Below, piece by piece: positions 12,188 through 33,541 of a DNA stretch of 41,169 bases; within the stretch, counting starts at the first letter, position 1; every line of letters begins with the position of its first letter. Source of the stretch: Verrucomicrobiota bacterium (GTDB lineage Bacteria; Verrucomicrobiota; Verrucomicrobiia; Chthoniobacterales; UBA10450). The translations under genes and the position numbers were made by a program. The DNA is taken from assembly GCA_003218475.1 (NCBI GenBank), contig QHNR01000001.1, positions 1-41,169 of the forward strand, written 5' to 3'. The notes under the pieces are model-generated. The model had not been told where the DNA came from and searched no databases. It saw only the letters and a list, made by a program, of their open reading frames with translations.

Positions 12188-12322
12188 GCGCGGTGTTTCC
12201 TGGACAATTTTCGGGGGGGTCGAAGTCGGAAGGCCGGACGGTCCGGGCACGACTAAGAGTTTTGTCCGATAGGCTGGAGCTCTCGGCTGTGCTAGAACTG
12301 TAGAATTGCAACTCCAGTGCAA

Positions 12323-13921
12323 ATGAACGCCATGAACTCTGTCATATTCACTCTCGAGCAGCACGGTCTCACCGTCGCCGACGTGCATCATAATCTTCAG
12401 CCTAGCGCGCTCTATGAACACGCGATTCGTTTTGAGAAAGACGCGAGCATTGCCGAGAACGGCGCGCTCGTCGCCTACTCGGGAGTCAAGACGGGGCGTT
12501 CGCCAAAGGACAAGCGTGTGGTCGAGCATGCCGCGTCGAAAAACGACGTCTGGTGGGGACCAGTAAATATTCCGTGCGACGAACGCACATTCCAAATCAA
12601 CCGCCAGCGCGCGCTTGACTATCTCAACACGCGCGAGCGGCTCTATTGTTTCGACGGCTTTGCAGGCTGGGATCCGAAATATCGCATCAAAGTCCGAGTG
12701 ATTTGTTCGCGGCCGTATCACGCGCTCTTCATGCATACCATGCTCATCCGTCCGATGCGCGACGAACTCGCCAGCTTTGGGACACCGGACTTCGTCATCT
12801 ACAACGCAGGCGCGTTTCCGGCGAATCGGCTAACGAGTGGCATGGGATCGACGACCAGCATCGATCTGAGCCTCGAGGACAAAGAACTTGTTATTCTGGG
12901 CACCGAATACGCTGGCGAGATGAAGAAAGGTGTCTTCACCGTGGCCAATTACTTTGTGCCAAGGCGCGGTTTGCTTTCGATGCATTGCTCGGCCACTGCA
13001 GATAAAAAGACGGGGGTTTCGTCGCTGCTCTTCGGTCTCAGCGGCACCGGAAAAACCACACTCTCAGCCGATCCAAAGCGTCATCTCATTGGTGACGACG
13101 AACACGTTTGGAGCGATGACGGCATTTTCAATATCGAAGGCGGTTGCTATGCGAAGGCGATCAATCTCGCGCCAGAAAGCGAGCCGGACATTTTTCAGGC
13201 GTTGCGGTTCGGCGCCGTACTCGAGAACGTCGTCCTCGACGAAGAGCGCGATGTCGATTACACCGATACAAGCATCACGGAGAACACTCGTGGAGCGTAT
13301 CCGATCGAGTTCATTCAGAACGCGAAGATCCCCTGTGTCGCGGGTCATCCGACCGACATAATCTTTCTCACCTGTGATGCGTTCGGCGTGCTGCCGCCGG
13401 TCAGCGCGCTCTCACCGGCGCATGCGATGTATCATTTCATCAGCGGCTATACCGCCAAGGTCGCAGGTACCGAGATGGGCGTGACGGAGCCACAGGCAAC
13501 ATTTTCGCCCTGCTTCGGCGGACCATTTCTCGTCTGGCATCCCAGCAAATACGCGGAACTGCTTGCGGAAAAGATGAGAAAGCACGAGGCGCGCGTCTGG
13601 CTGGTTAACACCGGGTGGGGCGGCGGCGCTTATGGCGCCGGCAAACGGATCAGCCTCAAAAATACACGCGCAATCATTGACGCTATTCACAGCGGCGACC
13701 TCGCGAAGGCGAAAACAGCGCGCGATCCAGTATTTGGTTTCAACATCGTCGTTGAGTGCCCCGGCGTGCCTGCGGAAATTCTGCGCCCTCGCGAAAGCTG
13801 GGCCGACAAGTCTGCCTACGACACGACCGCGAAAAAACTCGCGACTCTTTTCAATAAGAATGTCGAGACCTACGCCGCAGGCGCGAGCGCTGAGGTTAAA
13901 GCCGCAGCGCCTGTGGCTTGA
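12323..13921 (+). CDS. pckA: Phosphoenolpyruvate carboxykinase (ATP)
   Basis: The 532-residue protein carries the ATP-type signatures: KTGRSPKDKRVV, the P-loop GLSGTGKTTLS (about residue 240), the kinase-2 motif IGDDEHVWSDDGIFN with the adjacent EGGCYAK, and NTGWGGGAYGAGKRI near the C-terminus. It converts oxaloacetate and ATP to PEP, ADP and CO2, the entry step of gluconeogenesis. A GTG six bases upstream is in frame; the ATG is preferred. The 135 bases before the gene hold no recognisable regulatory site. Confidence 0.96.
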   Translation: MNAMNSVIFTLEQHGLTVADVHHNLQPSALYEHAIRFEKDASIAENGALVAYSGVKTGRSPKDKRVVEHAASKNDVWWGPVNIPCDERTFQINRQRALDYLNTRERLYCFDGFAGWDPKYRIKVRVICSRPYHALFMHTMLIRPMRDELASFGTPDFVIYNAGAFPANRLTSGMGSTTSIDLSLEDKELVILGTEYAGEMKKGVFTVANYFVPRRGLLSMHCSATADKKTGVSSLLFGLSGTGKTTLSADPKRHLIGDDEHVWSDDGIFNIEGGCYAKAINLAPESEPDIFQALRFGAVLENVVLDEERDVDYTDTSITENTRGAYPIEFIQNAKIPCVAGHPTDIIFLTCDAFGVLPPVSALSPAHAMYHFISGYTAKVAGTEMGVTEPQATFSPCFGGPFLVWHPSKYAELLAEKMRKHEARVWLVNTGWGGGAYGAGKRISLKNTRAIIDAIHSGDLAKAKTARDPVFGFNIVVECPGVPAEILRPRESWADKSAYDTTAKKLATLFNKNVETYAAGASAEVKAAAPVA

Positions 13922-19696: not shown

Positions 19697-20371
19697 ATGA
19701 ACAAGTATATCGCCGAATTCATCGGAACTTTCTTCCTTGTCCTGACAATTGGCTGCACGGGAATTGGCGCGGGTGCGGGTGTTATTGCACCGCTCGCCAT
19801 CGGCGCGGCTCTCATGGTGATGGTTTTCGCGGGCGGCCACATCTCAGGCGCGCATTACAATCCGGCAGTTACAGTCGGCGTCTTGATCCGGGGTAAAGTC
19901 AACGCAGCCGACGTGGTGCCTTACATGGTTGCACAACTCGTCGGCGCCGGGCTCGCTTCTTTGATCGTGATCAAATTCCTCCGGGCCGGTGTCGCGGTCA
20001 CTCCGATAACGCCGCATGTTGGTCCGGCGCTGCTTGCGGAGTTTCTTTTTACGTTCGCGCTGGTGTATGTGGTGTTGAACGCGGCTACTGCGGAAGGGAC
20101 TTCCGGCAATTCATTCTATGGCCTCGCTATTGGCATGACGGTGATGACCGGTGCATTCGCCGTGGGAGACATTTCGGGCGGCGCATTTAACCCCGCCGTC
20201 GCCTTCGGCATCTGCGTTCTTGGTATTTCAAGTTGGGGCAATATCTGGATTTATCTGCTGGCCGATTTCGCTGCTGCCGTCGTCGCGGCCGTAATTTTCC
20301 AGATGATCAATCAGCCAATGCAAACCACCCCGATCGCAACCGCCGAGCCGCCTTACGAAACGCCGCGGTAA
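19697..20371 (+). CDS. Aquaporin/MIP-family channel
   Basis: The 224-residue protein has six membrane helices and both NPA motifs: HYNPAVT (NPA at 55-57) and AFNPAVA (NPA at 165-167). It starts with the usual YIAEFIGTFFLV. The Arg that normally follows the second NPA (NPAR), part of the selectivity filter, is Val168 here, so the pore may differ from classical AqpZ water channels and GlpF glycerol channels. It should form tetramers in the inner membrane. Transcribed alone; the palindromic element at 20394 lies directly downstream. Confidence 0.9.
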   Translation: MNKYIAEFIGTFFLVLTIGCTGIGAGAGVIAPLAIGAALMVMVFAGGHISGAHYNPAVTVGVLIRGKVNAADVVPYMVAQLVGAGLASLIVIKFLRAGVAVTPITPHVGPALLAEFLFTFALVYVVLNAATAEGTSGNSFYGLAIGMTVMTGAFAVGDISGGAFNPAVAFGICVLGISSWGNIWIYLLADFAAAVVAAVIFQMINQPMQTTPIATAEPPYETPR

Positions 20372-20393
20372 CTCTGCATCTTCTTAGTGCTCG

Positions 20394-20608
20394 TTGATTG
20401 TCAGTTCGAAGAAATCGAGCCTTTACGTCACGCTTTCCCGCCTCTCCCCTTAGGCAAGGGGAGAGGACTAAGGTGAGGGCTTTCGAGTACATCCATTGGC
20501 TCAGTTGCCGTGTAGGCAAACCCTCACCCTCCCCCTCTCCCTGCGAGGGCGAGGCGACCCATGCGCCGCGGCGTCTCCCACACCCCAACGACGCGAACTG
20601 ACAATTGA
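20394..20608. repeat. MITE-like element with terminal inverted repeats and internal palindromes
   Basis: Fifteen-base ends TTGATTGTCAGTTCG (20394-20408) and CGAACTGACAATTGA (20594-20608) are inverted repeats, identical at 13 of 15 positions. Inside lie a perfect 11-bp hairpin with a 4-base loop (20441-20451 / 20456-20466), then GGTGAGGG (20472-20479), and its inverted counterpart CCCTCACC with a CCCTCTCCC/GAGGG palindrome (20521-20553). No protein is encoded. The internal palindromes resemble those at 31214-31387. It fills the gap between the aquaporin gene and the next gene and may also act as a transcription barrier. Confidence 0.65.
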
Positions 20609-20730
20609 CCAACAGTACCCCGCATCTTCTCGGGGCGAATATTCGTCTTGACGATCCGACGCCAAAAGTCTGTAATTTCAAAGGACTCTTTTCTTCTCCG
20701 CGCAACTCAACCACAACCATTCAAACCAAT

Positions 20731-21183
20731 ATGACCCGAAATAAATTCAACACAGTCATCGCTATAATTTGCGGGTGCTTTGCGGCTTTGTCTTTGAATG
20801 CAGCCACGATCCCCGCCGGGACAACAGTGACAGTAACGACGGTTAGCCTTCTCACCGCGCAGGATGTAGTGGGCAGAAGCTTCGAGGCGAAAATCGCCCA
20901 GGACGTTTCGGTGAAGGGAAATGTTTTATTGAAAGCTGGAACAAAGGCCTTCGGCAAGATTCGCTCTTCTCGCGCTAATCCGCGCAAATCCGGGCCGCTC
21001 ACTGTGGAATTGACGTCGGTCTCGGTGAACGGACGCAATGTCGCGGTGAAGACGAACAGTGTCCAACCGGGAGGCCCACCCCAGACAGCGCGACAGGCCC
21101 AGTATGGACATACCGCCGGCACAACAGTGGTTAATCCCGGTAGCAAAATGCAGTTCCAGCTTTTACAAGCCGCTACTCTTTAA
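20731..21183 (+). CDS. Small secreted protein, intact paralogue of the 5913-6363 pseudogene
   Basis: The ATG at 20731 gives 150 residues with a clear signal peptide (FNTVIAIICGCFAALSLNA, cleavage before ATIP). The mature part is beta-rich and polar: VGRSFEAKIAQDVSVKGN, FGKIRSSRANPRKSGP, then a Gly/Gln/Thr-rich tail (YGHTAGTTVVNPGS) ending MQFQLLQAATL. The same start is seen in the minus-strand paralogue, which supports it. Such domains, with an ATIPAGTxVxVxT opening, are seen in secreted or envelope proteins, but I know no function. Confidence 0.75.
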   Translation: MTRNKFNTVIAIICGCFAALSLNAATIPAGTTVTVTTVSLLTAQDVVGRSFEAKIAQDVSVKGNVLLKAGTKAFGKIRSSRANPRKSGPLTVELTSVSVNGRNVAVKTNSVQPGGPPQTARQAQYGHTAGTTVVNPGSKMQFQLLQAATL

Positions 21184-21189
21184 GGAAGC

Positions 21190-21400
21190 GTGTTCAGAAG
21201 CTGTTTCGCGCGTTCGGCCGAGATTGTTTTCGATCAGGGTCTAGGTGATTTATTCGCACTCAGAGTGGCTGGCAACGCGATCGATGGTCACGCCTCGAGA
21301 AGCATCGAGGACGCAGTCGATGAGGCGGTGAGCGCGGTCAGTAATTCGTTAGGTCACCACGGAATCAAAAACGGAAAATTTGCCTGTAGTGGAAGGCCAA
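21190..21400 (+). pseudogene. Carbonic anhydrase (beta class) remnant
   Basis: The reading frame contains EIVFDQGLGDLFALRVAGN followed by IDGH and SIEDAVDEAV, unmistakably the central block of a beta-carbonic anhydrase. The zinc-binding CxDxR segment that should come just before is reduced to SCFARSAE, and the following GHExCGA zinc block is replaced by SLGHHGIKNGKFA. The start, most of the N-terminus and much of the C-terminus are missing; the frame ends at 21453 in Cys-rich nonsense. It cannot be an active enzyme. Confidence 0.7.
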
Positions 21401-21493
21401 GAACCTCATGTCTGGAGTGTATTACGTGCATGGGGTGTTATTGCTATCGCTGACGCCTACGTCACAGAGTTGGCAAGCTAGGGGCAAAACTGG

Positions 21494-22732
21494 ATGCGAT
21501 CAAAAGGTTTCATTCGCGTGCAAATTGGGACGCTTATAGCCGCGACGAGCGTCATCCAACTTGCCAACGGTTTCTATGGTACTTTCATCTCCCTACGGGT
21601 GGCGATCGAGAGTTTCGACGCAATCATGGCCGGCCTAGTGCTTAGCAGTTATTTCGCCGGTTTCACGTTGGCCGCGTTGTTCTGCGGAAGAATCATCGAG
21701 CGCATTGGGCACATCCGCGCCTACGCAGCATTTGCCGGTGTCGTTGCCAGCGCAACTGCGTGCATGCCGTTGTGGGTTGGACCGCTCTCCTGGATTATTC
21801 TACGCGCGATTGTCGGTTTCGGATGCGCCGGGATCTTCGTGACGACTGAGAGTTGGCTGAACGCCAAGGCTCCGCGATCGGAACGCGGTCGAGTGTTCTC
21901 GATCTATATGGTCGGGACGTTCCTAGCGCTCGCAATCGGGCAGCTTCTGATCGGCAGGGCCAACATTCAGACGGCAGCGCCTTTCAACGCGATCGTCGCC
22001 TTGTTCGCGATGGCGCTGGTGATGGTCACCACGACCCGGGCCGAGCCGCCCCAGGCAACCGCTACCGAACGGCTGCCCTATGGTCAACTCTCGCGCGCCG
22101 CACCCGTCGCAGTCGTTGGTTGCGTGCTTAGTGGCCTCATCGCCGGTACCTTCTACTCATTGGTTCCAGCATGGATGCAGGACGTGGGCATTGAACGCGG
22201 ACGTATCGCGCTGTACATGCTTGTGGCCGTCCTCGGCGGGTTCGCATTCCAGATTCCAATTGGCTGGATATCGGACCGTTTCGACCGGCGTGTTGTGCTC
22301 GCGGCGCTCGGGCTCGGCTTCGCAGGCACGGCACTTGCCCTAGTCGGCCTGCCACACTCTCTGCCAGTGGTCGCTTCAACCGCGGTGCTGCTCGGAGGCT
22401 TCATGTCGACCCTCTACCCTGTGTGCGTGGCCCACGCGCACGACCGCATGCCGATGGACCGAGTCGTTGCGGTAAGCGGCCGGCTCATCCTTGTGAGCGG
22501 GTTGGGCTCCGTGCTTGGCCCACTCATAGGCTCGAGCATAATGTCGCGCCTCGACATTGACGGGGTGTTCTATTTCATGGCTGCCGCCGCGCTGCTGCTC
22601 GGGCTAGTGGCCGGAGGGAGAAGTTTGACGACTGCGCCCCCGCAGCACCTAAGACGGCCTTTTGAAATCCTGGCACCGCAGGCGGCACCGCTCGCGCATG
22701 ACACGCAACGTTCTCTGGATGAATCACCATAA
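21494..22732 (+). CDS. MFS transporter (YcaD-like)
   Basis: The 412-residue protein has 12 predicted membrane helices in two halves. Motifs include GFTLAALFCGRIIERIGHIRAY (MFS loop 2-3 motif), TTESWLNAKAPRSERGRVFSIYMVG, typical of the YcaD subgroup, and GWISDRFDRRVV in the second half. It is an inner-membrane proton-coupled carrier or efflux pump of unknown substrate. It lies 93 bases after the carbonic anhydrase remnant's last open codon block and has no obvious co-transcribed partner; the 236 bases that follow show no gene. Confidence 0.88.
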   Translation: MRSKGFIRVQIGTLIAATSVIQLANGFYGTFISLRVAIESFDAIMAGLVLSSYFAGFTLAALFCGRIIERIGHIRAYAAFAGVVASATACMPLWVGPLSWIILRAIVGFGCAGIFVTTESWLNAKAPRSERGRVFSIYMVGTFLALAIGQLLIGRANIQTAAPFNAIVALFAMALVMVTTTRAEPPQATATERLPYGQLSRAAPVAVVGCVLSGLIAGTFYSLVPAWMQDVGIERGRIALYMLVAVLGGFAFQIPIGWISDRFDRRVVLAALGLGFAGTALALVGLPHSLPVVASTAVLLGGFMSTLYPVCVAHAHDRMPMDRVVAVSGRLILVSGLGSVLGPLIGSSIMSRLDIDGVFYFMAAAALLLGLVAGGRSLTTAPPQHLRRPFEILAPQAAPLAHDTQRSLDESP

Positions 22733-22968
22733 CCACATTCCCCAGCGACTGCCTGATAATCAGACCCGGCACGAGATTGCAATTCCAAACTTCTAAAAAG
22801 CCGCCACTTTTTAAGAAAGCGTGAGCCGAAGCGGTTTGAGGACGTGGGGCCATCACCTTTCTTGACGAGAAGTAAGCTCCTCAACAAACAAACGCCGTCC
22901 GCTGCCAAACTCTAGTGGGCGAGCTGGTGAAGTGACGACAAGACGATAGCGTCTACTATTGGAATGAT

Positions 22969-23370
22969 TTGAAACTTCCCGCTCACGTTCTGTTTCGGAA
23001 GGATCTGTCTCTCATCCTCTGGAAGCTACGCGGCATCCTGGATGAAGCAACGGTCAACGAGATTGTCGCGTTCACTGAGGCCGTCGAAAAACGTAGCCGG
23101 AAACCTCTCAACCGATTCTACGACTTGTCGGCGCTTGACGCCGTTGATCTGAATTTTGACTTCGTCTTTCACGTTGCGCTTGGCCGGCGTCTCTCGGCCG
23201 CACCCAGGCCCGCAGTGAAATCCGCCTTCTACGTAACGAGCCCGGACAGCACGCATTACGTCAAACTGCACGCCATGCTGACCGATTATTCGCCGCTCCA
23301 CGTTGCCCTGTTCACGGATCGCGCCGCCGCTGCGAAGTGGCTCGGCGTTCCGCTCGAGGCGTTATCGTAA
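22969..23370 (+). CDS. SpoIIAA-like small protein, TTG start
   Basis: The 133-residue cytoplasmic protein starts at TTG. This start is supported by the fragment at 3999, whose ATG-AAA-CTG aligns with TTG-AAA-CTT here. The sequence (ILWKLRGILDEATVNEIV, KPLNRFYDLSALDAV, AAAKWLGVPLEAL) suggests an alpha/beta fold of the SpoIIAA/STAS kind, and it is distantly similar to the protein at 19111. There is no catalytic motif. No partner kinase or phosphatase gene is nearby, so an anti-anti-sigma role cannot be claimed. Confidence 0.7.
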   Translation: MKLPAHVLFRKDLSLILWKLRGILDEATVNEIVAFTEAVEKRSRKPLNRFYDLSALDAVDLNFDFVFHVALGRRLSAAPRPAVKSAFYVTSPDSTHYVKLHAMLTDYSPLHVALFTDRAAAAKWLGVPLEALS

Positions 23371-23474
23371 TAAGAGCCCAGGCGGTGTTACGATTCTGTT
23401 ATAAAAATCTCCGTGCCAAATAAAGGGTTGTCGCGATGGGCTCACTTGCATGATCTCTCCGACCGTGAGGCCGT

Positions 23475-23687
23475 TTACCAATAGCGGTAATAACCTGCAC
23501 GCCCATTAACGCCGACAACCCAACCCCGGTGCCGATAGTAGTGCCCGTGATAGTGGTATCGGTAGTAATGCCCTCGGTACGAATATCGGTAGTAACGGCC
23601 TCCGTAATAATAAGCCGAAGCTTGTGCCGGAACAAAACAGGCAACACCGAGCACCACAGCAAACAGTAGCGGAAGAAGATTTTTCAT
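23475..23687 (-). CDS. Small secreted Tyr/His/Arg-rich protein
   Basis: From the ATG at 23687 the 70-residue product has a signal peptide (MKNLLPLLFAVVLGVACFVPAQASA) and a mature part of about 45 residues built from repeats of the kind YYRYSYRGHYYRYHYHGHYYR, ending GYYRYW. An upstream in-frame extension to 23846 overlaps the neighbouring membrane-protein gene and spoils the signal peptide, so it is rejected. Low-complexity Tyr/Gly/His proteins of this sort are common in Verrucomicrobiota; metal or surface binding is possible but unproven. Confidence 0.7.
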   Translation of the reverse strand: MKNLLPLLFAVVLGVACFVPAQASAYYYGGRYYRYSYRGHYYRYHYHGHYYRHRGWVVGVNGRAGYYRYW

Positions 23688-23746
23688 AAGTTTCCTGACT
23701 ATTAAACGCGGTGACTGCTTTGTTGTCGCGAAATATTTTTGCGGCT

Positions 23747-24325
23747 CTACTGAAATCGCAAGATAGCGGGCGTCACCGACTCTCCAGCGAGTTTTGTGAA
23801 TATCACATAAACTAGATTGCTCAGTGGCTCCTTGTACTTGGTCCACGGCCCGATCAATGCTCTTCCCAATTGCTCCAGCTCCTGTGTGTAACAGAACAAT
23901 GCGAACAAACCGATAACTAAAGCAAGGTAGCGGGAGGTAGGTATCTGGAATTCCGGCCTTCGCACAATAAAGACGAAGCCAAAAACAGAGGTCGCCAGGA
24001 CGAAGGACATGCGGGCGACAAATAGAAGGATATGGCCAACGAATGTGCTACGAAGTTGCGGGAGCGACTGCCGAAGTCGGCGGCCTATCCAATAACCTGT
24101 CTGCATCAACGTGATCGCCGACAACGACCATACCAAATTCTCCGGTCGCGGTACATGACTGCCCGGGTCTAGAAGAACTTGCCTGACGAGCGGCACGGCA
24201 TACCACAGAAGGATGGCGGTCCCTGTCGTTTGCAGGGCGAACAAAAAGAAGTAGCGCAAGGCACCGCGGCTCTTCCCTCCGCGCCCGGAAGCGGCCATCG
24301 GATCGTGCGGTCCGGTCATTGACAT
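23747..24325 (-). CDS. Four-helix inner-membrane protein of unknown function
   Basis: From the ATG at 24325 (alternatives at 24319, 24298 and 24385) the product has about 192 residues with four hydrophobic helices: FLFALQTTGTAILLWYAV, LVWSLSAITLMQTGYWIG, LLFVARMSFVLATSVFGFVF and LALVIGLFALFCY. Charged linkers (RRLRQSLPQLRS, RRPEF) separate them. The C-terminal segment is soluble. I cannot place it in a family. It is transcribed divergently from the outer-membrane gene at 24566 and upstream of the Tyr-rich protein gene, 59 bases apart. Confidence 0.6.
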   Translation of the reverse strand: MSMTGPHDPMAASGRGGKSRGALRYFFLFALQTTGTAILLWYAVPLVRQVLLDPGSHVPRPENLVWSLSAITLMQTGYWIGRRLRQSLPQLRSTFVGHILLFVARMSFVLATSVFGFVFIVRRPEFQIPTSRYLALVIGLFALFCYTQELEQLGRALIGPWTKYKEPLSNLVYVIFTKLAGESVTPAILRFQ

Positions 24326-24470
24326 CCAACTTAGCGCACAATGCGCATGACCGCCCTGCAGATCGGCAGGCAGGGAAAAATTCATAAAACAGTCGCGACA
24401 ATCAGCACCTGCGCAGGATACACGCGCGATAAACGAGCAACTTTGCGGCAGCGTGTGCAAATATGTCTAT

Positions 24471-24487
24471 TGTTACGATTTCGTTAC
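24471..24487 (+). promoter_or_regulatory. Direct repeat GTTAC-N6-GTTAC upstream of the outer-membrane gene
   Basis: TGTTACGATTTCGTTAC places two GTTAC half-sites 11 bases apart, about 80 bases before the TTG start at 24566 and in the divergent intergenic region. An 11-base spacing of direct half-sites is the usual pattern for OmpR/PhoB-type response regulators. A close copy lies at 23386-23406, but there it sits between convergent gene ends, which weakens a promoter role. Confidence 0.3.
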
Positions 24488-24550
24488 AAAATTTTCCTAC
24501 TGAAAAATAACGCTTTCCCCGATGAACTCCGCTATATACAGTCGCGAGCC

Positions 24551-24557
24551 GAGGGGG
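24551..24557 (+). promoter_or_regulatory. Ribosome binding site GAGGGGG before the TTG start at 24566
   Basis: This strong purine run, eight bases before a TTG codon, decides the start of the following gene: the TTG begins a clean signal peptide, whereas the long upstream extension of the frame does not. Confidence 0.6.
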
Positions 24558-24565
24558 AAATCCGG

Positions 24566-25477
24566 TTGATACGGCGATTCATTAGCCAGTGCTTTTTCGC
24601 GGGCATTTTCTTGTCAGCTTGGACTGCTTTGGCTGGAACTGAGAGCTACGACTACAAACAAGCGCCGCCTCCTCCTCCGCCCTCCTGGTGTGAAACGCCT
24701 CCGACATTCGAAATCCGCGTCGGTGCTCCCGGGTGGTTGGCCGGAATATCCGGCGATACTGGAGTACTGGGATTAGTCGACTCCACGGACATTACCTTCA
24801 GCGAGGTTTTGCGGCATCTGACGCATGTGCCCATTGTGCTCAGCGCTGAGTTCCGATATCAGCGATGGGAGCTTTTCGGAGACGGTCAGTACATGGAGGT
24901 GGGCGCCTCTGCGACTCTGCCCGGGTTGCTTTTTACCAATGCGAATCTTCATCTCAAAGACGGGTTGGCCGAAGCCTTCCTTGGTTACCGACTAATTAAT
25001 TGCGATAAGGCAGCTCTCTCTTTGTTTGCGGGCGCGCGTTACAATTATGAAGGAGTTAACCTAAGCATTTTCAATAATGGTGACGCGCGCCTCGTCATTC
25101 TTCGTCAATTACTGGGAATCCGCAACAAGTTGGCGGTCTCGGGTTCGACCGATTGGGTCGATCCCGTGATCGGGGTGCGCGGAAAAGTGAGGATTTGGAA
25201 GGCGACATCTCTTTATGCCGAAGGCGATATCGGTGGGTTTGACGCCAATTCTGACTCGGCTTTTGATATACATCGCCAGGGACGCACACTCGTAAAAACG
25301 CCGATATCAAGCGAGGATTGGAGCTATCAGCTTCAAGGCGGCTTTGAATTTCAAGTTAGCAGGTGGTTCTGGACGCAGGTCGGCTGGCGCTGGCTGCGGA
25401 CAGACTTTGTCTCTGGCGGTTTTACCAATAAGACCGACTTGAATGGGCCATTCGTCCAGGGCGGCGTGAATTTTTAG
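24566..25477 (+). CDS. Outer-membrane beta-barrel protein
   Basis: From the TTG the product has 303 residues: signal peptide (IRRFISQCFFAGIFLSAWTALAG), a short proline run (PPPPPP, about 31-36), then a barrel of alternating strands such as VLSAEFRYQRWELFGDGQY, AALSLFAGARYNYEG, DPVIGVRGKVRIWKATSLYA and YQLQGGFEFQVSRWFWTQVG. It ends with Phe (GGVNF), the usual barrel terminus. The frame is open upstream to 24341, but that region is intergenic in character. The substrate or role is unknown. A direct-repeat site lies about 80 bases upstream. Confidence 0.75.
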   Translation: MIRRFISQCFFAGIFLSAWTALAGTESYDYKQAPPPPPPSWCETPPTFEIRVGAPGWLAGISGDTGVLGLVDSTDITFSEVLRHLTHVPIVLSAEFRYQRWELFGDGQYMEVGASATLPGLLFTNANLHLKDGLAEAFLGYRLINCDKAALSLFAGARYNYEGVNLSIFNNGDARLVILRQLLGIRNKLAVSGSTDWVDPVIGVRGKVRIWKATSLYAEGDIGGFDANSDSAFDIHRQGRTLVKTPISSEDWSYQLQGGFEFQVSRWFWTQVGWRWLRTDFVSGGFTNKTDLNGPFVQGGVNF

Positions 25478-25592
25478 ACTGCTTCCGTTAATCAAATCAA
25501 TCCGGCCGGAGGGGCGACATCGACATCGAGGGTGAGAGCTGAGTCATCGTCGGAAGACAACCCACACTTATGAAAGCTATGCACTTAGGATT

Positions 25593-27569
25593 ATGACCAG
25601 AGAACTTATGAAACAAAAATTCCAGATTATCTTTATCTCCTGTATTGCCGGCCTCGCTTTGCCAGCGTTCGCCGCCGAGCAACCCATAACAGATGTAGGC
25701 ACGCTCGATGAGACATCGGCCAAGCAGGCGTTTCCCGAAAGGCCGCCGTATTCGCCTTACGCTGGGCGCAACTTTCCCACGCGGCCGTTTTTCGGCGATA
25801 CGCACGTCCATACTTCGTTCTCAATGGACGCGGGCGCGTTCGGATGCCGACTGGGACCGGCTGATGCATATCGTTTCGCCAAAGGTCAGGAGGTAACGGC
25901 TTCCAGCGGTCAGCGTGCGATGCTGGCGCGCCCACTTGACTTCATTGTTGTAACCGATCACTCGGATGGCTTCGGATTTTTCCCACAGTTACTTGGCGCT
26001 AATCCCGAGTTGCTGGCATATCCACAAGGCCGGAAGTGGTACGACATGATCAATTCCGGCCACGGTGCGGCCGCGGCGGTCGATATCATCCAGAGTTTTT
26101 CACAGGGGACCATGGCCAAAGGGTTACTGCCCGTTCCCGGCACGTCTACCTATCGCGGAGCATGGCAGGAAGTAATTAAGGCTGCGGATGAGGCGAATGA
26201 TCCAGGCCACTTCACCGCTTTCATTGGCTATGAGTGGACGTCGACTACTAGCGGAAACAACCTCCATCGCAATGTCATCTTCCGGGAGAACGGGCTCTGG
26301 GCCGGTCAGGTCGAACCTTACACAACTCAGAAACCGCTCGGCAGCGATAACCCGCGCGACCTGTGGAAATGGATGGCGGCCTACGAACAAAAAACCGGCG
26401 GTAACGTGCTCGCTCTCGCCCACAACGGCAATCTAAGCAACGGCATCATGTTCCCGATCATCGAATCGTTCACGGGGAAGAAGATCGATCGCGAATATGC
26501 CGAGAATCGCATGCGATGGGAGCCGCTCTATGAATGCACACAAATTAAAGGCGACGGCGAGACACATCCATTCCTTTCGCCTAACGATGAGTTTGCCAAC
26601 TTCGAGCGTTGGGACAAAGGCAATCTCGACCTGAGCGTGTTGAAAAAGCCTGAGATGCTGGAGTTCGAGTATGCGCGCTCTGCGCTTAAGAACGGCCTCA
26701 AAATGGAGGCCGAGCTTGCAGTTAATCCTTACAAGTTCGGGCTGGTCGGTTCCACTGACACTCATACCGCGCTAGCTACCGCTGATGACGACAACTTCTT
26801 CGGCAAGACTTCTAACTCGGAGCCAAGCGCAACCCGCGCTACGCATCCATTCATCAAGACTGATAAGGCGACAATCATGAGCTGGGAAGAAACTGCGTCC
26901 GGCTATGCTGCCGTATGGGCAACCGAGAATACGCGGGAAGCACTTTTCGACGCCATGAAGCGCCGCGAGACCTACGCCACTACTGGTCCGCGCATGATCG
27001 TGCGCTTCTTCGGCGGCTTCGACCTTGAAGAGAAGGACGCGCAGGATCGCATGCCTGCACGTATCGCTTACACCAAAGGCGTGCCGATGGGCGGCGATCT
27101 TCGCGCCGCTCCCGCTGGCAAGTCGCCAACGTTCCTCGTTGCCGCTCTCAAAGACCCAATCGGCGCAAATCTTGATCGAATCCAAATCATCAAAGGCTGG
27201 TTAGATAAGGCGGGCAAGACTCAGGAAAAAGTTTACGACGTAGTCTGGAGCGGCGATCGCAAACCGGGCAGCGACGGAAAGGTTCCGTTGGTTGGGAATA
27301 CCGTCGACGTGCCGAACGCGACCTACACTAACAGCATCGGCGCGCCCGAGCTAATCAAAGTCTGGAAAGACCCGGACTTCGATCCGGCATTGCGCGCGTT
27401 CTACTACGTGCGCGTGATTGAGATTCCCACGCCGCGGTGGACGGCATATGACGCCAAATACTTCGGTGTGAAAATGCCGCCGGAAGTTCCGATGACTACG
27501 ACGGAGCGCGCCTATACATCGCCGATCTGGTACACGCCAACTAACAAGATCGAGGGCCGAACCAATTGA
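25593..27569 (+). CDS. DUF3604 exported protein (PHP-like metal site), first copy
   Basis: The 658-residue protein has a signal peptide (KQKFQIIFISCIAGLALPAFA); an ATG 15 bases further in is an equally good start. FFGDTHVHTS (residues 67-75) gives the D-x-H-x-H pair of a PHP-like metallohydrolase, with VVTDHSD (119-125), an ALAHNGN segment and GSTDTHTAL further on as probable ligands. GCRLGPADAYRFAKGQEV is typical of DUF3604. The C-terminus ([24 protein letters not shown]) is complete. The enzyme activity of the family is not established. It heads a run with the second copy, an isomerase, a HupE-like protein and an FGE homologue. Confidence 0.9.
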   Translation: MTRELMKQKFQIIFISCIAGLALPAFAAEQPITDVGTLDETSAKQAFPERPPYSPYAGRNFPTRPFFGDTHVHTSFSMDAGAFGCRLGPADAYRFAKGQEVTASSGQRAMLARPLDFIVVTDHSDGFGFFPQLLGANPELLAYPQGRKWYDMINSGHGAAAAVDIIQSFSQGTMAKGLLPVPGTSTYRGAWQEVIKAADEANDPGHFTAFIGYEWTSTTSGNNLHRNVIFRENGLWAGQVEPYTTQKPLGSDNPRDLWKWMAAYEQKTGGNVLALAHNGNLSNGIMFPIIESFTGKKIDREYAENRMRWEPLYECTQIKGDGETHPFLSPNDEFANFERWDKGNLDLSVLKKPEMLEFEYARSALKNGLKMEAELAVNPYKFGLVGSTDTHTALATADDDNFFGKTSNSEPSATRATHPFIKTDKATIMSWEETASGYAAVWATENTREALFDAMKRRETYATTGPRMIVRFFGGFDLEEKDAQDRMPARIAYTKGVPMGGDLRAAPAGKSPTFLVAALKDPIGANLDRIQIIKGWLDKAGKTQEKVYDVVWSGDRKPGSDGKVPLVGNTVDVPNATYTNSIGAPELIKVWKDPDFDPALRAFYYVRVIEIPTPRWTAYDAKYFGVKMPPEVPMTTTERAYTSPIWYTPTNKIEGRTN

Positions 27570-27597
27570 AAACTACCCTAACAAGAACACGACGAAG

Positions 27598-27942
27598 CTA
27601 CTCTTCTTGCCTCGCAAAGAATTGCTCCAACGCCGCGCAGACTTCGGGCACATGAACGGTTGCGACTTCCCAGACGATCTTCAGGTTCACGTTTGCGTAC
27701 TCGTGGGCAACGATGTTGCGCATTCCGCGCATTTTGCGGAAAGGCAGCGCTGGTACTTCGCGCCGGGTGTTTTCGTTCAAATGCGCGGTTGCTTCCCCGA
27801 TGATTTCGAGCCGGCGAATCACCGCGTCCTGCTTTTGCGTGTCTCCGAGGAAAGCATTCTCACTCGTGTTCGCAACGTATCGAGCGATCAACCGCGCCGC
27901 CTCGAGGATATCGCGCAGGCGTCCAAGTTGATCAGCTTCCAT
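27598..27942 (-). CDS. hepT: HepT-family (DUF86) toxin RNase
   Basis: From the ATG at 27942 the product has 114 residues, the normal length of a HepT toxin. It contains the RX4HxY motif (RNIVAHEY, residues 75-82): Arg and His form the HEPN RNase centre and the Tyr is the residue that MntA antitoxins modify with AMP. Its start overlaps the end of the mntA gene by 11 bases, so the pair is co-transcribed and translationally coupled. It is on the opposite strand to the two DUF3604 genes that flank it. Function as a toxin is inferred from family knowledge. Confidence 0.88.
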   Translation of the reverse strand: MEADQLGRLRDILEAARLIARYVANTSENAFLGDTQKQDAVIRRLEIIGEATAHLNENTRREVPALPFRKMRGMRNIVAHEYANVNLKIVWEVATVHVPEVCAALEQFFARQEE

Positions 27943-28252
27943 GGAGGCACACTGCGGTGGAAAGAATGTGATCCCGGGCAAATCGATTCGGCGACTGCTC
28001 GAGCGAGGAACGCAGGACAAAATCGACCGCCGCGCCGACGATCTCTTCCGCTTCGCCAGCCATCTCCAGCAACTGCGAGGTCGATACCGGTGCCGACAAT
28101 GTTACCAAGAGATCGACATCGCTCTTCGGTTCCATCTCGCCACGCGCCGCAGATCCGAAGACTTCCAACTTGCGGATTGGATGTTTCGCGTAAAACGGGC
28201 CTAGTCGTTTCCGCAGCACGGAAAGCGAGAGCGTGTTGGTTTTGCTATGCAC
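27932..28252 (-). CDS. mntA: MntA-family nucleotidyltransferase antitoxin
   Basis: The 106-residue protein has the minimal nucleotidyltransferase motif GSx10DxD (GSAARGEMEPKSDVD, residues 33-47) with RG after GSAA. MntA proteins neutralise HepT by transferring AMP groups to its conserved Tyr. It is encoded first in the two-gene unit, upstream of hepT. The 124 bases to the second DUF3604 gene form a divergent promoter region. All key residues are present, so the pair looks functional. Confidence 0.88.
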   Translation of the reverse strand: MHSKTNTLSLSVLRKRLGPFYAKHPIRKLEVFGSAARGEMEPKSDVDLLVTLSAPVSTSQLLEMAGEAEEIVGAAVDFVLRSSLEQSPNRFARDHILSTAVCLHGS

Positions 28253-28376
28253 AGCCTGAACTTAACCGCCAACCAGGCACAATATCAAGCTCCTCTCCTT
28301 CGATCACCGCCAGCACCATTTCGTACACGCCGCGGACCTAAACTCGACTACAACAATCATCCAAAGGAAAAATAAC

Positions 28377-30179
28377 ATGAGAACTACGATCATTCGGAAG
28401 CTGACCCTCGCGCGCTCGGCTATGTTGTTACTGGGTCTCACGAGCCTCAGTTTGGCAGCGCGGTCTTTGGCGCAAGATGTGGATGTCAATCCAAAGAACG
28501 TCACGCTCGGCAAAGCCGAATACTGCCCTTACCTCGACCATGCTTACCCTGATCGCGTATACTTTGGGGACACACATCTGCACACGTCCTACTCGACTGA
28601 TGCGGGCATGATCGGTTGCACGCTCGGTCCGGATGAGGCTTACCGATTCGCACGGGGCGAAGAGGTCACCTCGAGCACGGGCGTCCGCGCGCGCCTACAG
28701 CGCCCGCTGGATTTCCTGGTTGTGTCCGACCACTCCGAGAATCTCGGCCTTGCTCCAATGATCGCCGAATCGAATCCTGATCTGCTCAAGACGGAGTGGG
28801 GGCGCATGGTTCATGATCTTGTGAAGAGTGGCAAGGGAGGACTGGCATATAACACATGGGGTGAAGCACTGCTCAAGCGGCAAGACCCCTTGAAGGGTAA
28901 CGATGCCGTCACACGCGCGATGTGGGAGCGCATCACGACTTCCGCCGAAAAATATAACGAGCCGGGCAAGTTCACGGCCTTCATCGGCTTTGAGTGGACC
29001 TCCGCCCCTAACGGAAACAATCTCCACCGCAACGTCATCTTTCGCGACGGTAAGGCTAAGGCGGATCAGATCATACCGATCTCGCAGTATGACACTCAGG
29101 ACGCCGAGGAATTGTGGAAATGGATGAATGCCTATGAGCAGAAGACCGGCGGCCGCCTCTTAGCTATCCCACACAACGGCAATCTCTCCTGTGGCATGAT
29201 GTTCGACGATGTTACCTTGACTACTAAAAAGCCGCTCGACCGCAACTACGCGCTACAGCGGATGCACTGGGAGCCGATCTACGAAGTGACACAAATGAAG
29301 GGCGACGGCGAGACACACCCAGCGGTTTCGCCCGGCGATGAGTTCGCCAATTTCGAAACCTGGGACAAAGGTGGCTTTGGGAGTACCGTCCACACACGAG
29401 ACATGCTCCCGCGCGAGTACGCCCGCGAGGCGCTCAAGCGCGGTCTGAAGTATGAGGAGAAAATTGGGGCGAACCCATTCAAGTTCGGGATGATCGGTTC
29501 GACCGATTCGCACACTGCGCTTTCGACTGCGACCGAGGACAACTTCTTTGGCAAAGTTACGCCTCTTGAGCCTTCCGCCAGGCCCGACCGCTTCGACGAG
29601 ATCATCACCGGTCGCCTTTCAAAGGATCCGTCGCAGCGGCAATATGCCTGGCAGACGAGCGCCTCCGGCATTGCCGCGGTTTGGGCGACGGACAACACCC
29701 GCGAGGCATTGTGGGATGCCATGTCGCGCAAGGAAGTCTATGCCACCACCGGCACACGGCTGATCGTGCGCATTTTCGCCGGCTGGGATTTCGTCCCTGA
29801 TGACGCGGAGCGGCACGACTTTGCCAAATACGGTTACCAGAAAGGAGTGCCGATGGGCGGCGACCTCACCGCTGCACCGGAAGGTAAAGCTCCAACTTTC
29901 TTGATCCGCGCGCTGCGAGACGTTGATGGCGCAAACCTCGACCGCGTGCAGGTCATCAAGGGTTGGCTCGATACCAAAAGCGAAACGCATGAACAGATCT
30001 GGGACGTGGCCGTGTCCGGGGACCGCAAGATCGAAGCAGATGGCCGTTGTAAGACGCCTATCGGTAATACGGTGAACGTCGCAGATGCCAGCTACCAAAA
30101 CACCATCGGCTCGCCCATGTTACTGGGCTACTGGAAGGATCCGAACTTCAACGGCGCGCCTTCTACTACGTACGGGTGA
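28377..30179 (+). CDS. DUF3604 exported protein, second copy, frameshifted near the C-terminus
   Basis: The protein is closely similar to the copy at 25593 along its whole length: signal peptide (residues 1-32), [10 protein letters not shown] with the D-x-H-x-H pair (65-69), [19 protein letters not shown] and [11 protein letters not shown]. The frame ends early in [15 protein letters not shown]. The first copy continues there with about 50 further residues. Those residues exist in another frame just downstream (30152-30313), so one base, or four, has been lost near 30150. The remaining 600 residues keep all probable metal ligands. Whether the shortened protein folds is unknown. Confidence 0.87.
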
Positions 30180-30313
30180 TCGAGATTCCCACGCCACGTT
30201 GGACGACATACGACGCAAAAATCTTCGGCACGAAGCCACCCGCAAATTGTCCAACCTCAATCCAGGATCGCGCCTACACATCGCCCATTTGGTACACACG
30301 CGCTAAATCATAA
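30152..30313 (+). pseudogene. Displaced C-terminal end of the second DUF3604 gene
   Basis: In the frame ending at TAA 30311-30313 the sequence reads [19 protein letters not shown], then FGTKPPA and [10 protein letters not shown], matching the C-terminus of the first DUF3604 copy. It has no start of its own. It ends eight bases before the isomerase gene, as the intact gene would have. Confidence 0.85.
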
Positions 30314-30321
30314 TTCCGCTT

Positions 30322-31194
30322 ATGAAAAAACTTATTCGCGAACCATTCATTCACTTCCTTCTTCTCGGGGCGGCTATTTTTCTGGCAAATCATTTTCTTT
30401 CTGCGCGCGCCGATAATCAGCCGGGCAAGATTGTCATTACCCAAGGCGACATCACATCGATAGTGATCGGCTTCTCGCGCACCTGGCAGCGCCCACCCAC
30501 ACGTGAAGAGCTGGACGGCTTGATCCGCGATCGCGTGCGCGAAGAAGTCTATTACCGGGAAGCAATGGCAATGGGTTTGGATCGGGACGACCCAGTTATC
30601 CGGCGCCGGCTGCAACAAAAGCTGCAATTTGTTACTGACGATGTCGCAGCGGCGCCTGAGCCCACAGACGCTGAGTTGACAGAGTATTTGAAAGCACATG
30701 CCAAAGGTTTCCGCGCGGATCGTAAGTTTACCTTCAGCCAGGTGTATCTCGATCCGAGTAAGCACGGCGATCATCTTGCCCAGGATGCGAATGAACTCCT
30801 GATTCAGTTGCAACAGCAAAGACGCGATGTCGACCTTTCCTCCTTAGGCGACGCCTTTCTATTGGAGCACCGGTTCGAAGCGGCGCCGACCACCGAGATC
30901 GCAAAACAGTTTGGCGATAAGTTCGTGGCGGAACTGGCCGACGTTCCAATCGGACAATGGTTCGGTCCGGTCGAATCCGGTTATGGCAAGCATCTGGTCC
31001 TTGCCGAAAACCGTACCGAGGGGCGTCTGCCTGAGTTAGCTGAAGTTCATGACGCTGTTCTGCGCGACTGGACCAATGCTCGCCGGCTGGAATCGAACGA
31101 GAAGTTTTTCCAAAGCCTGATCAAGCACTACCAGGTAGTGGTCGAAACATTTGATCCGGCGAAAGCTGACCAAAAAGTCGCAAACGCAAAATGA
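30322..31194 (+). CDS. Membrane-anchored parvulin-type peptidyl-prolyl isomerase
   Basis: The 290-residue protein begins with an N-terminal anchor (FIHFLLLGAAIFLANHFL). A SurA/PpiC-like helical region follows (LDGLIRDRVREEVYYREAMAMGLDRDD, VIRRRLQQKLQF), then a parvulin-type domain (about 135-250) with FTFSQVYLD and IGQWFGPVESGYGKHLVL. It should act in the periplasm as a folding helper. It starts nine bases after the displaced DUF3604 end and its TGA overlaps the hupE-like ATG (ATGA). Its dedicated place between DUF3604 and HupE/UreJ genes suggests a specific client, possibly the DUF3604 protein. Confidence 0.85.
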   Translation: MKKLIREPFIHFLLLGAAIFLANHFLSARADNQPGKIVITQGDITSIVIGFSRTWQRPPTREELDGLIRDRVREEVYYREAMAMGLDRDDPVIRRRLQQKLQFVTDDVAAAPEPTDAELTEYLKAHAKGFRADRKFTFSQVYLDPSKHGDHLAQDANELLIQLQQQRRDVDLSSLGDAFLLEHRFEAAPTTEIAKQFGDKFVAELADVPIGQWFGPVESGYGKHLVLAENRTEGRLPELAEVHDAVLRDWTNARRLESNEKFFQSLIKHYQVVVETFDPAKADQKVANAK

Positions 31195-32405
31195 ATTTGA
31201 AATCGTTGGAGTGCCCTCACCCTCACCCTCTCCCCGAGGGAGAAGGAATATTCGCTGCAACTGGCCGATGGGAACGCATCCAGCTGTCGAGCACCTCTTC
31301 CAAGACCGGCGAGGCCGAAGTGACATCCGAAGCTTCAAGAGCCTCGCGTAGCTGTTCCCTCTCCCCGTGGGAGAGGGTGAGGGCGAGATTTCCGTTACTA
31401 ATCGCTTTTCTTTTGTTCGTGACTTCGTTCTGCGCTTCGGCGCACGAAGTCCGCCCAGCGTATCTCGAACTGCGCCAGACGGCGACCGACAACTACGATG
31501 TTCTGTGGAAGGTGCCGGCGCGTGGCGACAATATGCGGCTTGGCATCTACGTGCAGTTCCCACCCGGGACAAGTAACGTTACTACGCCACGAACCTTATT
31601 TGCTAACGACGCCTCGACTGAACGGTGGAGCATAAAACGACCAGGTGGCCTAACCGGTGACGAGGTTCACATTACCGGTCTCGAGGCGACGATGACCGAC
31701 GTGTTGGTGCGGATCGAGAATCTCGATGGCACAACTCAGGTAACTCGTGTTACTCCATCATCGCCGTCGTTTGTTGTAGCAGCTGCGCCCGGTGCGTTAG
31801 AAGTGTGCCGCACTTACCTCGTGCTCGGGGTCGAGCACATTCTATTCGGCATCGATCATCTGTTGTTTGTGCTAGCTTTGCTTGTTCTGGTAAAGGGATG
31901 GCGAAAGCTTGTCGGAACCATCACTGCGTTCACGATCGCGCACAGTATCACACTAGCGGCCGCCACATTGGGATTCGTGCACGTCCCAAGCAAGCCGGTC
32001 GAGGCGACGATTGCTCTTAGTATCGTCTTTGTCGCTTGCGAGATTGTTCATCGGCGCCAGGGACGATCCGGTCTCACGGAAATGTGGCCGTGGGTAATCG
32101 CGTTTAGCTTTGGTCTTTTGCACGGGCTCGGCTTCGCGGGGGCGTTGCGCGAAGTTGGCCTCCCGCAAAACGCGATTCCGCTCGCGCTTTTTTTCTTCAA
32201 CGTCGGCGTGGAAGTGGGACAACTCCTCTTTATTGGCTTAGTCATGGCGGTAATCACGCTGGCAGTTCACGCCGCCAGGAAATTCAGTCGACGGAACGTC
32301 GCGCCGCAAACTTCCTTTGCTTGGTGTGAAAACATTTCGGCTTACGCCATCGGCGGCGTCGCGGCCTTTTGGCTGATTGAACGAACCCTCACTTTTATTG
32401 CATGA
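31191..32405 (+). CDS. HupE/UreJ-family membrane protein with a repeat-derived N-terminus
   Basis: The frame starts at an ATG overlapping the isomerase stop (ATGA). Its first 62 residues are encoded by palindromic repeat DNA (HPHPLPEGEG, SLSPWERVRAR). A proper signal peptide follows: starting at the in-frame GTG at 31377 it would read MRARFPLLIAFLLFVTSFC-ASA. The exported domain (HEVRPAYLELRQ) and seven or so helices with VEHILFGIDHLLFVLALLVL, FTIAHSITLAAA and GLLHGLGFAGAL are typical of HupE/UreJ_2 proteins, some of which are thought to handle nickel or cobalt. Either start is possible; the GTG start would give 342 residues. The TGA overlaps the next ATG. Confidence 0.82.
   Translation: MNLKSLECPHPHPLPEGEGIFAATGRWERIQLSSTSSKTGEAEVTSEASRASRSCSLSPWERVRARFPLLIAFLLFVTSFCASAHEVRPAYLELRQTATDNYDVLWKVPARGDNMRLGIYVQFPPGTSNVTTPRTLFANDASTERWSIKRPGGLTGDEVHITGLEATMTDVLVRIENLDGTTQVTRVTPSSPSFVVAAAPGALEVCRTYLVLGVEHILFGIDHLLFVLALLVLVKGWRKLVGTITAFTIAHSITLAAATLGFVHVPSKPVEATIALSIVFVACEIVHRRQGRSGLTEMWPWVIAFSFGLLHGLGFAGALREVGLPQNAIPLALFFFNVGVEVGQLLFIGLVMAVITLAVHAARKFSRRNVAPQTSFAWCENISAYAIGGVAAFWLIERTLTFIA
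31214..31387. repeat. Pair of inverted palindromic repeats inside the hupE-like frame
   Basis: The left unit (31214-31246) contains CCCTCACCCTCACCCTCTCC and a CTCCCCGAGGGAG palindrome. The right unit (31356-31387) is its inverted partner: CCCTCTCCCCGTGGGAGAGG followed by GTGAGGGCG. About 110 bases separate them. They resemble the internal palindromes of the element at 20394-20608, but with opposite relative orientation. Confidence 0.75.
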
Positions 32406-33541
32406 ATAAGCGCCTGACACGTGCTTTGATTTCATTCTGTCCAAATCTGAAAATGCAGCGTCCCGCAATCTTCCTTTTCGCAGCACTCTTAATATCCAGG
32501 CCGGCATTCTGTGGCACGACGGAGTTTGAGCCCACTGTTCCGAAAACGAAGCCCGCGCCGGGCAAAGCACCTAAGGGCATGGTCTGGATTCCAGGCGGTG
32601 AGTTCTCGATGGGCGCCGCTGTAAACGGTGAAGGCGGCCATGAAATGCCTATGGCGTCGAACGACGCAGGTCCGATTCATCGCGTTCGCGTGGATGGTTT
32701 CTGGATGGATGCAACGGCAGTGACGAACGGGCAGTTTGAGAAGTTTGTTAAGGCGACCGGCTACGTTACGATCGCGGAACGGACGCCCACCCAGGAAGAA
32801 TTTCCGACTGCGCCTGCTGAAAACCTTGTAGCAGGCGGAGTTGTTTTCGCGCCGACCGATCAGGAGGTCCCGCTCAACGATCATTATCAATGGTGGAGCT
32901 ACGTCAAAGGTGCGAACTGGCGGCATCCGCTCGGGCCGGAAAGCGATATCAAAGGGAAAGAGAATTACCCCGTGTTGCAGATCGCTTATCCTGACGCGGA
33001 AGCTTACGCGAAATGGGCGGGCAAACGTCTGCCGACTGAAGCCGAATTTGAATTTGCCGCGCGCGGCGGGTTGTCCGGAAAGACATACGTGTGGGGCGAT
33101 GAATTTCGGCCCAATGGGAAATGGATGGCCAACACTTGGCAGGGAAAATTCCCAGTGAAGGATGCTGGTGAAGATGGTTATGCAGGCATTGCGCCGGTGA
33201 AATCGTTTTCGCCGAATGGTTACGGACTTTACGACATGGCCGGCAACGTGTGGGAATGGTGCAGCGATTGGTATCGCCCGGATTATTATCAGACGCTTAT
33301 CGACAAAGGCGGCGTTGCGAAAAACCCGCAAGGCCCCGATTCACCATTTGATCCAGCTGAGCCGAATGAGAAAAAACGCGTCCATCGCGGTGGCTCATTT
33401 CTTTGTAACGACCAATACTGCTCGCGCTACATCGTTGGTACACGCGGCAAAGGCGAGGTTAACACCGGCACGAATCATCTGGGCTTCCGTTGTGTGAAAT
33501 CACCGCGAAGCAGCGACAATTCCGTAGCCCGAAGTAAATAA
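32402..33541 (+). CDS. Exported formylglycine-generating enzyme homologue (SUMF1 fold)
   Basis: The ATG overlaps the previous stop (ATGA). The 379-residue protein has a hydrophobic export signal (AIFLFAALLISRPAFC, about 22-37) and a complete FGE-sulfatase domain: GMVWIPGGEFSMGA, HRVRVDGFWMDATAVTNGQF, RLPTEAEFEFAARGG, YDMAGNVWEWCSDWY and HRGGSFLCNDQYCSRY. Cys335 and Cys340 match the Cys pair (Cys336/Cys341 in the human enzyme) that converts a substrate Cys to formylglycine. Most FGE-fold relatives lack this pair, so real catalysis is plausible. No sulfatase with a CxPxR site is encoded in the window, so the client is unknown. Confidence 0.88.
   Translation: MNKRLTRALISFCPNLKMQRPAIFLFAALLISRPAFCGTTEFEPTVPKTKPAPGKAPKGMVWIPGGEFSMGAAVNGEGGHEMPMASNDAGPIHRVRVDGFWMDATAVTNGQFEKFVKATGYVTIAERTPTQEEFPTAPAENLVAGGVVFAPTDQEVPLNDHYQWWSYVKGANWRHPLGPESDIKGKENYPVLQIAYPDAEAYAKWAGKRLPTEAEFEFAARGGLSGKTYVWGDEFRPNGKWMANTWQGKFPVKDAGEDGYAGIAPVKSFSPNGYGLYDMAGNVWEWCSDWYRPDYYQTLIDKGGVAKNPQGPDSPFDPAEPNEKKRVHRGGSFLCNDQYCSRYIVGTRGKGEVNTGTNHLGFRCVKSPRSSDNSVARSK

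Follow-up and report, generated by a model that had tools for sequence, protein, structure and literature searches.

A conserved DUF3604-PpiC-HupE/UreJ gene module, probably centred on an exported PHP-fold hydrolase, in a Verrucomicrobiota genome

The stretch of DNA considered here, hereafter the window, comprises positions 1-41169 of contig QHNR01000001.1 of a Verrucomicrobiota bacterium of the order Chthoniobacterales (assembly GCA_003218475.1), a draft genome of 3.16 Mb in 195 contigs that is 83% complete. Five genes on its plus strand, assigned by Pfam, encode two DUF3604 proteins, a PpiC isomerase, a HupE_UreJ_2 membrane protein and an FGE. DUF3604 protein A (25593-27569) matches PF12228 over profile positions 2-591 (E 1.6e-246, 819.9 bits, cut-off 20.4), and protein B (28377-30179), a second paralogue type, over positions 3-541 (708.8 bits). 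They are followed by a parvulin-type isomerase, PpiC (30322-31194; Rotamase_2, 36 bits), with a hydrophobic N-terminal anchor read by eye, by an anglerase-like HupE/UreJ_2 permease whose external beta domain begins with histidine (31191-32405; PF13795, 164 bits), and by a sulfatase-activating FGE, whose open reading frame (ORF) in the Pfam search spans 32402-33541 and whose probable true start is at 32453. A membrane-anchored isomerase, a HupE/UreJ protein and an FGE with both catalytic cysteines had been proposed in an earlier reading of the letters alone (the original prediction), and the Rotamase_2, HupE_UreJ_2 and FGE-sulfatase matches and the CNDQYC motif bear this out; its inventory left out an outer-membrane-like gene at 24341-25477, directly upstream of DUF3604 A, and a MntA/HepT-like gene pair separates the two DUF3604 genes.

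The association of these families extends to many other bacteria. A contig scan of 84,980 species gave at least 576 confirmed DUF3604 stretches, the best 80 loci of which were analysed; chosen by DUF3604 similarity alone, they leave distant members unsampled and many of them are rhizobial, and 25 have a flank shorter than 4.5 kb, the other 55 having at least 4.5 kb on each side. DUF3604 has both PpiC and HupE beside it in 66 of the 80 loci; of the 55 well-flanked ones, 50 show this arrangement, in agreement with the adjacency that the original prediction had noted for other bacteria. In these trio loci the pair comes after DUF3604 in 36 cases and before it in 30, in 65 of the 66 it is on the DUF3604 strand, and the nearest gap between core genes is at most 1275 bp in all of them, with a median of 59. 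According to the record titles, the trio loci span six phyla, namely Pseudomonadota, Desulfobacterota, Acidobacteriota, Verrucomicrobiota, Planctomycetota and Nitrospirota. DUF3604, PpiC and HupE_UreJ_2 form a conserved module whose association is far beyond chance; its members come from known families, and as a unit it was not found described. In particular, the accessible text of the open PubMed Central (PMC) literature yielded no work joining HupE/UreJ with a peptidylprolyl isomerase operon or relating FGE to HupE.

Within the module, PpiC and HupE appear to be a unit of their own, because the pair sits together elsewhere in genomes that lack it beside DUF3604. In the five well-flanked loci without the adjacent pair (L077, L124, L133, L135 and L145) and in L121, which has 3.2 kb on one side, HupE_UreJ_2 occurs elsewhere in all six genomes, and PpiC adjoins this distant gene in five; inspected by eye in 12 stretches, PpiC-HupE pairs away from DUF3604 showed no constant third gene. 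The overlap of four nucleotides between PpiC and HupE at 31191-31194 is common to 38 of 66 other loci (longest-ORF starts) and is thus probably ancestral; for the same reason, its explanation as an artefact of a palindromic repeat within the HupE gene (31214-31389) was dropped.

The module is also found on plasmids, with DUF3604 in 79 of 72,556 plasmid records, 61 of these 79 belonging to Rhizobium or Sinorhizobium. The trio was present in all three of the 79 plasmid neighbourhoods examined, and 41 of the 79 plasmids are typed as non-mobilizable; the module may be able to travel between replicons. On a Rhizobium indicum plasmid (L178, 11023-13640), an MBL hydrolase annotated as GntH and a GTP-binding protein are encoded directly 3' of DUF3604.

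As regards the enzyme itself, the original prediction described two exported DUF3604 proteins with metal sites of the D-x-H-x-H type. The motif and the PF12228 matches are indeed present in the window, with the reservation that the second gene is frameshifted: the last 50 profile positions of B lie in another frame (30149-30298), within a C-terminal remnant at 30149-30313 (PF12228 positions 541-590, E 5.6e-20), and the frameshift at 30149-30179, which gives B its early end, may be an assembly error or mark a pseudogene. Among 52 aligned DUF3604 proteins, the residues H71, H73, D79, H123, E214, H225, H277, D389 and H391 are invariant (52/52); the arrangement HxH...D, H, E, H, H, DxH is what we take to be the PHP metal ligand set. 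The AF2 model of protein A has a mean predicted local distance difference test (pLDDT) score of 89.7, and its top three Foldseek matches in the PDB are all of the PHP type, namely 7ug9, RNase AM (probability 0.99), 3e0f (0.94) and 3o0f (0.91). Lower-ranked matches are beta domains, e.g. Kir channels and RhoGDI, and are read as corresponding to a C-terminal beta domain in the model. By sequence, no PDB chain was matched by DUF3604 at E <=1. The N-terminus, read by eye, resembles a Sec signal peptide. From conserved residues and predicted fold, DUF3604 is probably an exported PHP-fold protein and a metal-dependent hydrolase.

Among known systems, the CehA/McbA-type PHP metallohydrolases share with DUF3604 the PHP ligand set and a distant NCBIfam match (CehA_McbA, NF038032; protein A, 25.4 bits), but the 80-bit cut-off is not reached by A, B gives no match, and DUF3604 has the extra C-terminal beta domain. 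The closest match by fold is to the PHP domain of RNase AM, but with 10% identity, large insertions and E 1.1e-3; moreover, DUF3604 looks exported, unlike RNase AM, which to our knowledge is not. In the open PMC literature, as far as its text was available, the function of DUF3604 is not described, the name appearing only for a Chlamydia gene in a table.

A tree of 91 DUF3604 sequences separates the two paralogue types. Protein B falls in a group (support 0.998) that includes L057, L058 and a single copy from each of the tandem pairs of L069, L142, L144 and L147; protein A groups with L068 (0.98) and L069 (0.78). Two long DUF3604 genes occur in seven of the 80 loci, four of them with the A-plus-B pattern, while L117, L129 and L131 differ. 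In a search of the phylum, PF12228 matched in 51 of 387 genomes (48 over the cut-off), mostly as short partial matches; near-full-length matches were found only in G417, G457, G318 and the window genome, and G327 has a single piece of 389 positions with an internal stop.

The two partner proteins also carry conserved features. The PpiC alignment shows a conserved N-terminal EPxxHF motif. In HupE, numbered from 31377, 35 or 36 of the 36 proteins compared share residues H154, D160, H161, H189, E222, H249 and E279; the first mature residue is His in 31 of the 36 and Asp in the other five, and in the window the cleavage site, placed by eye, reads ASA|HEVRP. The HupE model (mean pLDDT 91.6) has external strands at 28-133, followed by helices, and the best Foldseek match of the external domain is ZrgA (probability 1.00, E 1.2e-3), which the available text of PMC9820375 presents as a periplasmic zinc protein of Vibrio cholerae. 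Compared with the PDB by sequence, PpiC and HupE gave nothing at the limits used; for HupE, one search found no chain at E <=1 and another a single weak, uncharacterized chain at E 0.21. A second HupE_UreJ_2 gene is present in the window genome (G000, C143:38996-39442).

These features recall the anglerases, which, according to the accessible part of PMC12537917, are HupE/UreJ-2 proteins with an N-terminal His domain binding copper (Kd 73.6 nM) and nickel (220 nM), the closest structural match of the copper-binding Ang-1 domain being, in the same text, ZrgA. With the Ang-1-HupE/UreJ-2 proteins, as portrayed in those sections, the window HupE shares the signal peptide, the first mature His, a ZrgA-like beta domain and the PF13795 permease; its external domain is shorter, with about 115 residues against the approximately 175 given there for RbAng-1a (PMC12537917). 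The structure 9GCE is not among the 50 fold matches listed for HupE and possibly lies outside the set searched. The proposal in the original prediction that the HupE-like protein handles a metal fits these observations: judged from the His-first terminus, the modelled ZrgA-like domain and the analogy, HupE looks like a metal-capture permease and looks as if it works like the anglerases.

The position of the FGE is different. The protein matches PF03781 with 268.8 bits over profile positions 3-255 of 255, and matches PDB 2q17 over nearly its whole length (E 2.4e-83), sharing with that FGE the C-x4-C pair, here as CNDQYC; Pfam searches of 30 window ORFs gave no sulfatase domain. Among 38 relatives searched, long FGE matches of 84-87% identity occur in nine of the 24 genomes from the same genus, G014 and G020 have short pieces, and protein identity in the stretches retrieved from relatives is 81-89%. 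DUF3604, in contrast, is found in none of 146 relatives, the window genome being the sole match among the 147 searched. In the sister genome G021, positions 1-84 of contig L042 correspond to window 20289-20372, the end of an aquaporin gene, and positions 97 onward to window 32431 onward, with 12 bases between; downstream of this join lie the same DUF4097, ROK and 35297 genes as in the window. Because G021 joins the aquaporin end directly to the homology beginning at 32431, the window carries about 12 kb of extra DNA (20373-32430), within which the DUF3604 module lies in full. The downstream gene order recurs in part in G015 (L037) and G023 (L044), and the aquaporin of G010 and G014 is on the opposite side of the FGE, so the surroundings of the FGE vary within the genus.

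The G021 FGE reading frame starts at the equivalent of window position 32453, which in the window is 47 bases past the end of HupE, and the ATG at 32402 belongs to the extra DNA; hence the HupE-FGE overlap (32402-32405) was formed at the seam. Of the two ATGA overlaps from which joint translation of the last three genes had been deduced, that at 31191 looks genuine, and that at 32402 is an effect of the junction; the FGE could nevertheless be cotranscribed with HupE today, given the short distance. In the relatives the FGE has other neighbours: two sulfatases and a HAD gene precede it in G007 (L043), and a sulfatase read as two ORFs does so in G015 (L050). Seven sulfatase matches are spread over six other contigs of the window genome; the patterns used picked out CSPTR in one of these sulfatases, CTPSR in a second and nothing in the remainder. 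The motif CxPxR occurs in none of the 52 DUF3604 proteins, which have no conserved Cys. The suggestion that the FGE modifies a cysteine in, or activates, an exported enzyme is, as far as DUF3604 is concerned, not supported by these results, and the FGE as a DUF3604 maturase was rejected given, in addition, the block-free FGE site in G021; to judge from gene order, the FGE at this locus is probably a resident that became a neighbour by insertion and not a natural member of the module.

A dispersed palindromic repeat with the end motif CTCACCCTNNCCCTCTCCC is found at window 20459-20541 and 31214-31389. The second copy, with 33-nt inverted arms that are 85% complementary, follows the HupE start codon in frame, ahead of the signal peptide, and is read as protein; in the HupE alignment the occupancy over these residues is mostly 1-35%, i.e. 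at most about one third of the proteins. Allowing at most one mismatch, the genome has 18 sites with the end motif, distributed over 16 contigs, and none with the reversed pattern; the block has therefore probably resided here for some time. The whole repeat (190 bp) has no second copy in the genome; the exact end motif was absent from 11 sister-genome stretches and seven other same-genome stretches and was found once in the 80 foreign loci. Contamination of the contig is unlikely, as the downstream genes match sister genomes and the block carries the genome's own repeat motif; the seams may include a misassembly. The nearest relatives of PpiC and HupE are in L069, L072 and L058 (assigned to the Verrucomicrobiota by record title or group) and L094 (titled as Acidobacteriota), and that of DUF3604 A in L068 (titled as Bradyrhizobium). 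Since DUF3604 is absent from the relatives, the block would have been gained by transfer.

The outer-membrane-barrel-like protein encoded upstream of DUF3604 A is probably an accessory of the module. No Pfam family was matched by it; its relatives occur in the flanks of 21 of the 80 DUF3604 loci, at most 1 kb from a core gene in 10 of the 80, and the relative in L074 matches DUF481 (E 1.6e-4).

Sulfatase and FGE genes accompany the module at some other loci. Six of the 80 loci have an FGE relative in their flanks, each with a match to PF03781 (partial for L115), and 15 have a sulfatase relative there. In Mesorhizobium escarrei (L129, 5393-16658) the genes sulfatase-HAD-FGE-DUF3604-DUF3604-PpiC-HupE stand in a row; a sulfatase gene closely precedes DUF3604 in the same orientation in L093, L120 (a weak Sulfatase_C match), L121, L126 and L141, and a sulfatase is also upstream in L059, where the DUF3604 gene is broken. 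The module may plausibly be linked with sulfatases, and an FGE could serve a sulfatase that belongs to the pathway of DUF3604; that FGE acts directly on DUF3604 is implausible. The comparison of neighbourhoods put forward in the original prediction links PpiC and HupE to DUF3604 far beyond chance; FGE is enriched near the module among 30 genomes, yet at the window locus it is probably not a member.

On this evidence it is rather likely that a module consisting of the outer-membrane-like protein, the two DUF3604 proteins, PpiC and HupE was gained beside a resident FGE gene, and that it encodes an exported metallohydrolase of the PHP type together with dedicated partners for its folding and for metal handling. 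The linkage and the type of enzyme are the strong parts of this interpretation, and the metal loading is its more conjectural part. DUF3604 would be secreted through Sec and act as a hydrolase of the PHP family that holds several metals in its active site; PpiC, tethered to the inner membrane, would assist its folding at the exit of the translocon, and the external, histidine-first domain of HupE would catch a transition metal and hand it to the permease half. The metal would then load the exported enzyme, or be taken up once the enzyme has freed it from a substrate, which, by analogy with PHP enzymes, would most likely be a phosphate- or carbamate-type ester. The FGE, for its part, would serve the cell's sulfatases and not DUF3604.

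Several observations weigh against this interpretation. The nearest PpiC and HupE relatives belong largely to the same phylum, and the base composition is unchanged at the block edges, which lends no support to a foreign origin; moreover, the block-free site rests on one G021 contig that starts 84 bases before the join, in a genome that is 68% complete, and a loss of the block in G021 instead of a gain in the window may have occurred. The fold matches are distant: the top three of DUF3604 have E-values between 1.1e-3 and 2.4e-3, all above 0.001, and low TM-scores (0.18 by query), and the ZrgA match of the HupE domain does not reach E 0.001 either. PpiC-HupE pairs exist away from DUF3604 and hence may have other clients. 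In addition, the neighbours given for the Ang-1 permeases are DUF4198, indigoidine synthase A-like and PfkB proteins, the accessible portion of the main text naming neither DUF3604 nor an isomerase (PMC12537917). Finally, among 30 genomes with counted backgrounds, four have FGE genes near the module where 0.57 would be expected (P 0.0017), roughly a sevenfold excess, and four have sulfatase genes there where 1.27 would be expected (P 0.03), roughly a threefold excess, figures that argue against an irrelevance of FGE in general; the sulfatase expectation is a lower bound, two genomes having sulfatase counts of at least 53, and the observed sulfatases come from a protein cluster and are possibly too few. 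Without three sulfatase-rich genomes the sulfatase figures are 4 against 0.75 expected (P 0.006); several rows are related rhizobia, so all these P values overstate the enrichment.

A wider formulation, possible but doubtful at present, makes DUF3604-PpiC-HupE a dedicated envelope enzyme-maturation system, in which the permease domain would load the metal and the isomerase fold the enzyme, and which would travel between phyla as a unit and often join sulfatase/FGE cassettes into larger desulfation-dephosphorylation loci. The proximity of sulfatases can also be taken as the core of the matter, so that DUF3604 and exported sulfatases would together degrade sulfated or phosphorylated polymers, FGE would activate the sulfatase, and the window would keep only the FGE part of the cassette. 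The sulfatase relatives in 15 of 80 flanks, including the same-strand upstream cases and the L129 row, and the fact that the FGE's own relatives in G007 and G015 are neighbours of sulfatases point in this direction; nevertheless, within the stretches examined, 25 of them short-flanked, 65 of the 80 loci have no sulfatase and 74 no FGE, none of the 30 window ORFs has a sulfatase domain, and the FGE occurs without the block in G021, so that we regard this catabolic explanation as unlikely.

Less probable again is a role in metal scavenging, in which DUF3604 would degrade an extracellular metal-binding organic compound, HupE import the freed metal and the outer-membrane protein form the entry pore. 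N-terminal-His HupE_UreJ_2 proteins have been proposed as metal-capture permeases, according to the available sections of PMC12537917, outer-membrane-like relatives occur in 21 of the 80 loci, and the R. indicum neighbour annotated as a GTP-binding protein could, as a guess, be a metal chaperone, but PpiC would be left without an obvious role. True membership of the FGE in the module, with DUF3604 or another exported enzyme of the module as the protein that it activates or modifies, can hardly be credited: the ATGA overlap at 32402, the short gap and the FGE enrichment among the 30 genomes speak for it, and against it stand the absence of CxPxR from all 52 DUF3604 proteins, their lack of a conserved Cys and the occurrence of FGE without DUF3604 in sister genomes. 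If the favoured interpretation of an exported PHP metallohydrolase with its own partners holds, the module touches on the long-standing question of how metals are supplied to enzymes outside the cytoplasm, for which a small, widespread and closely linked gene set offers a simple test system; the linkage also gives the first testable roles for the DUF3604 family, which is found in many soil and symbiotic bacteria.

The MntA/HepT-like toxin-antitoxin pair between DUF3604 A and B (27601-28252, minus strand) stays below the NCBIfam cut-offs; HepT and MntA matches were found in the window only, among the 84 sources compared, and the pair is not a member of the DUF3604 module. Promoter and terminator scans of the window gave nothing decisive. 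The ATP-dependent phosphoenolpyruvate (PEP) carboxykinase gene at 12317-13921, without a match in 28 of 28 relatives searched, is another accessory gene of this contig.

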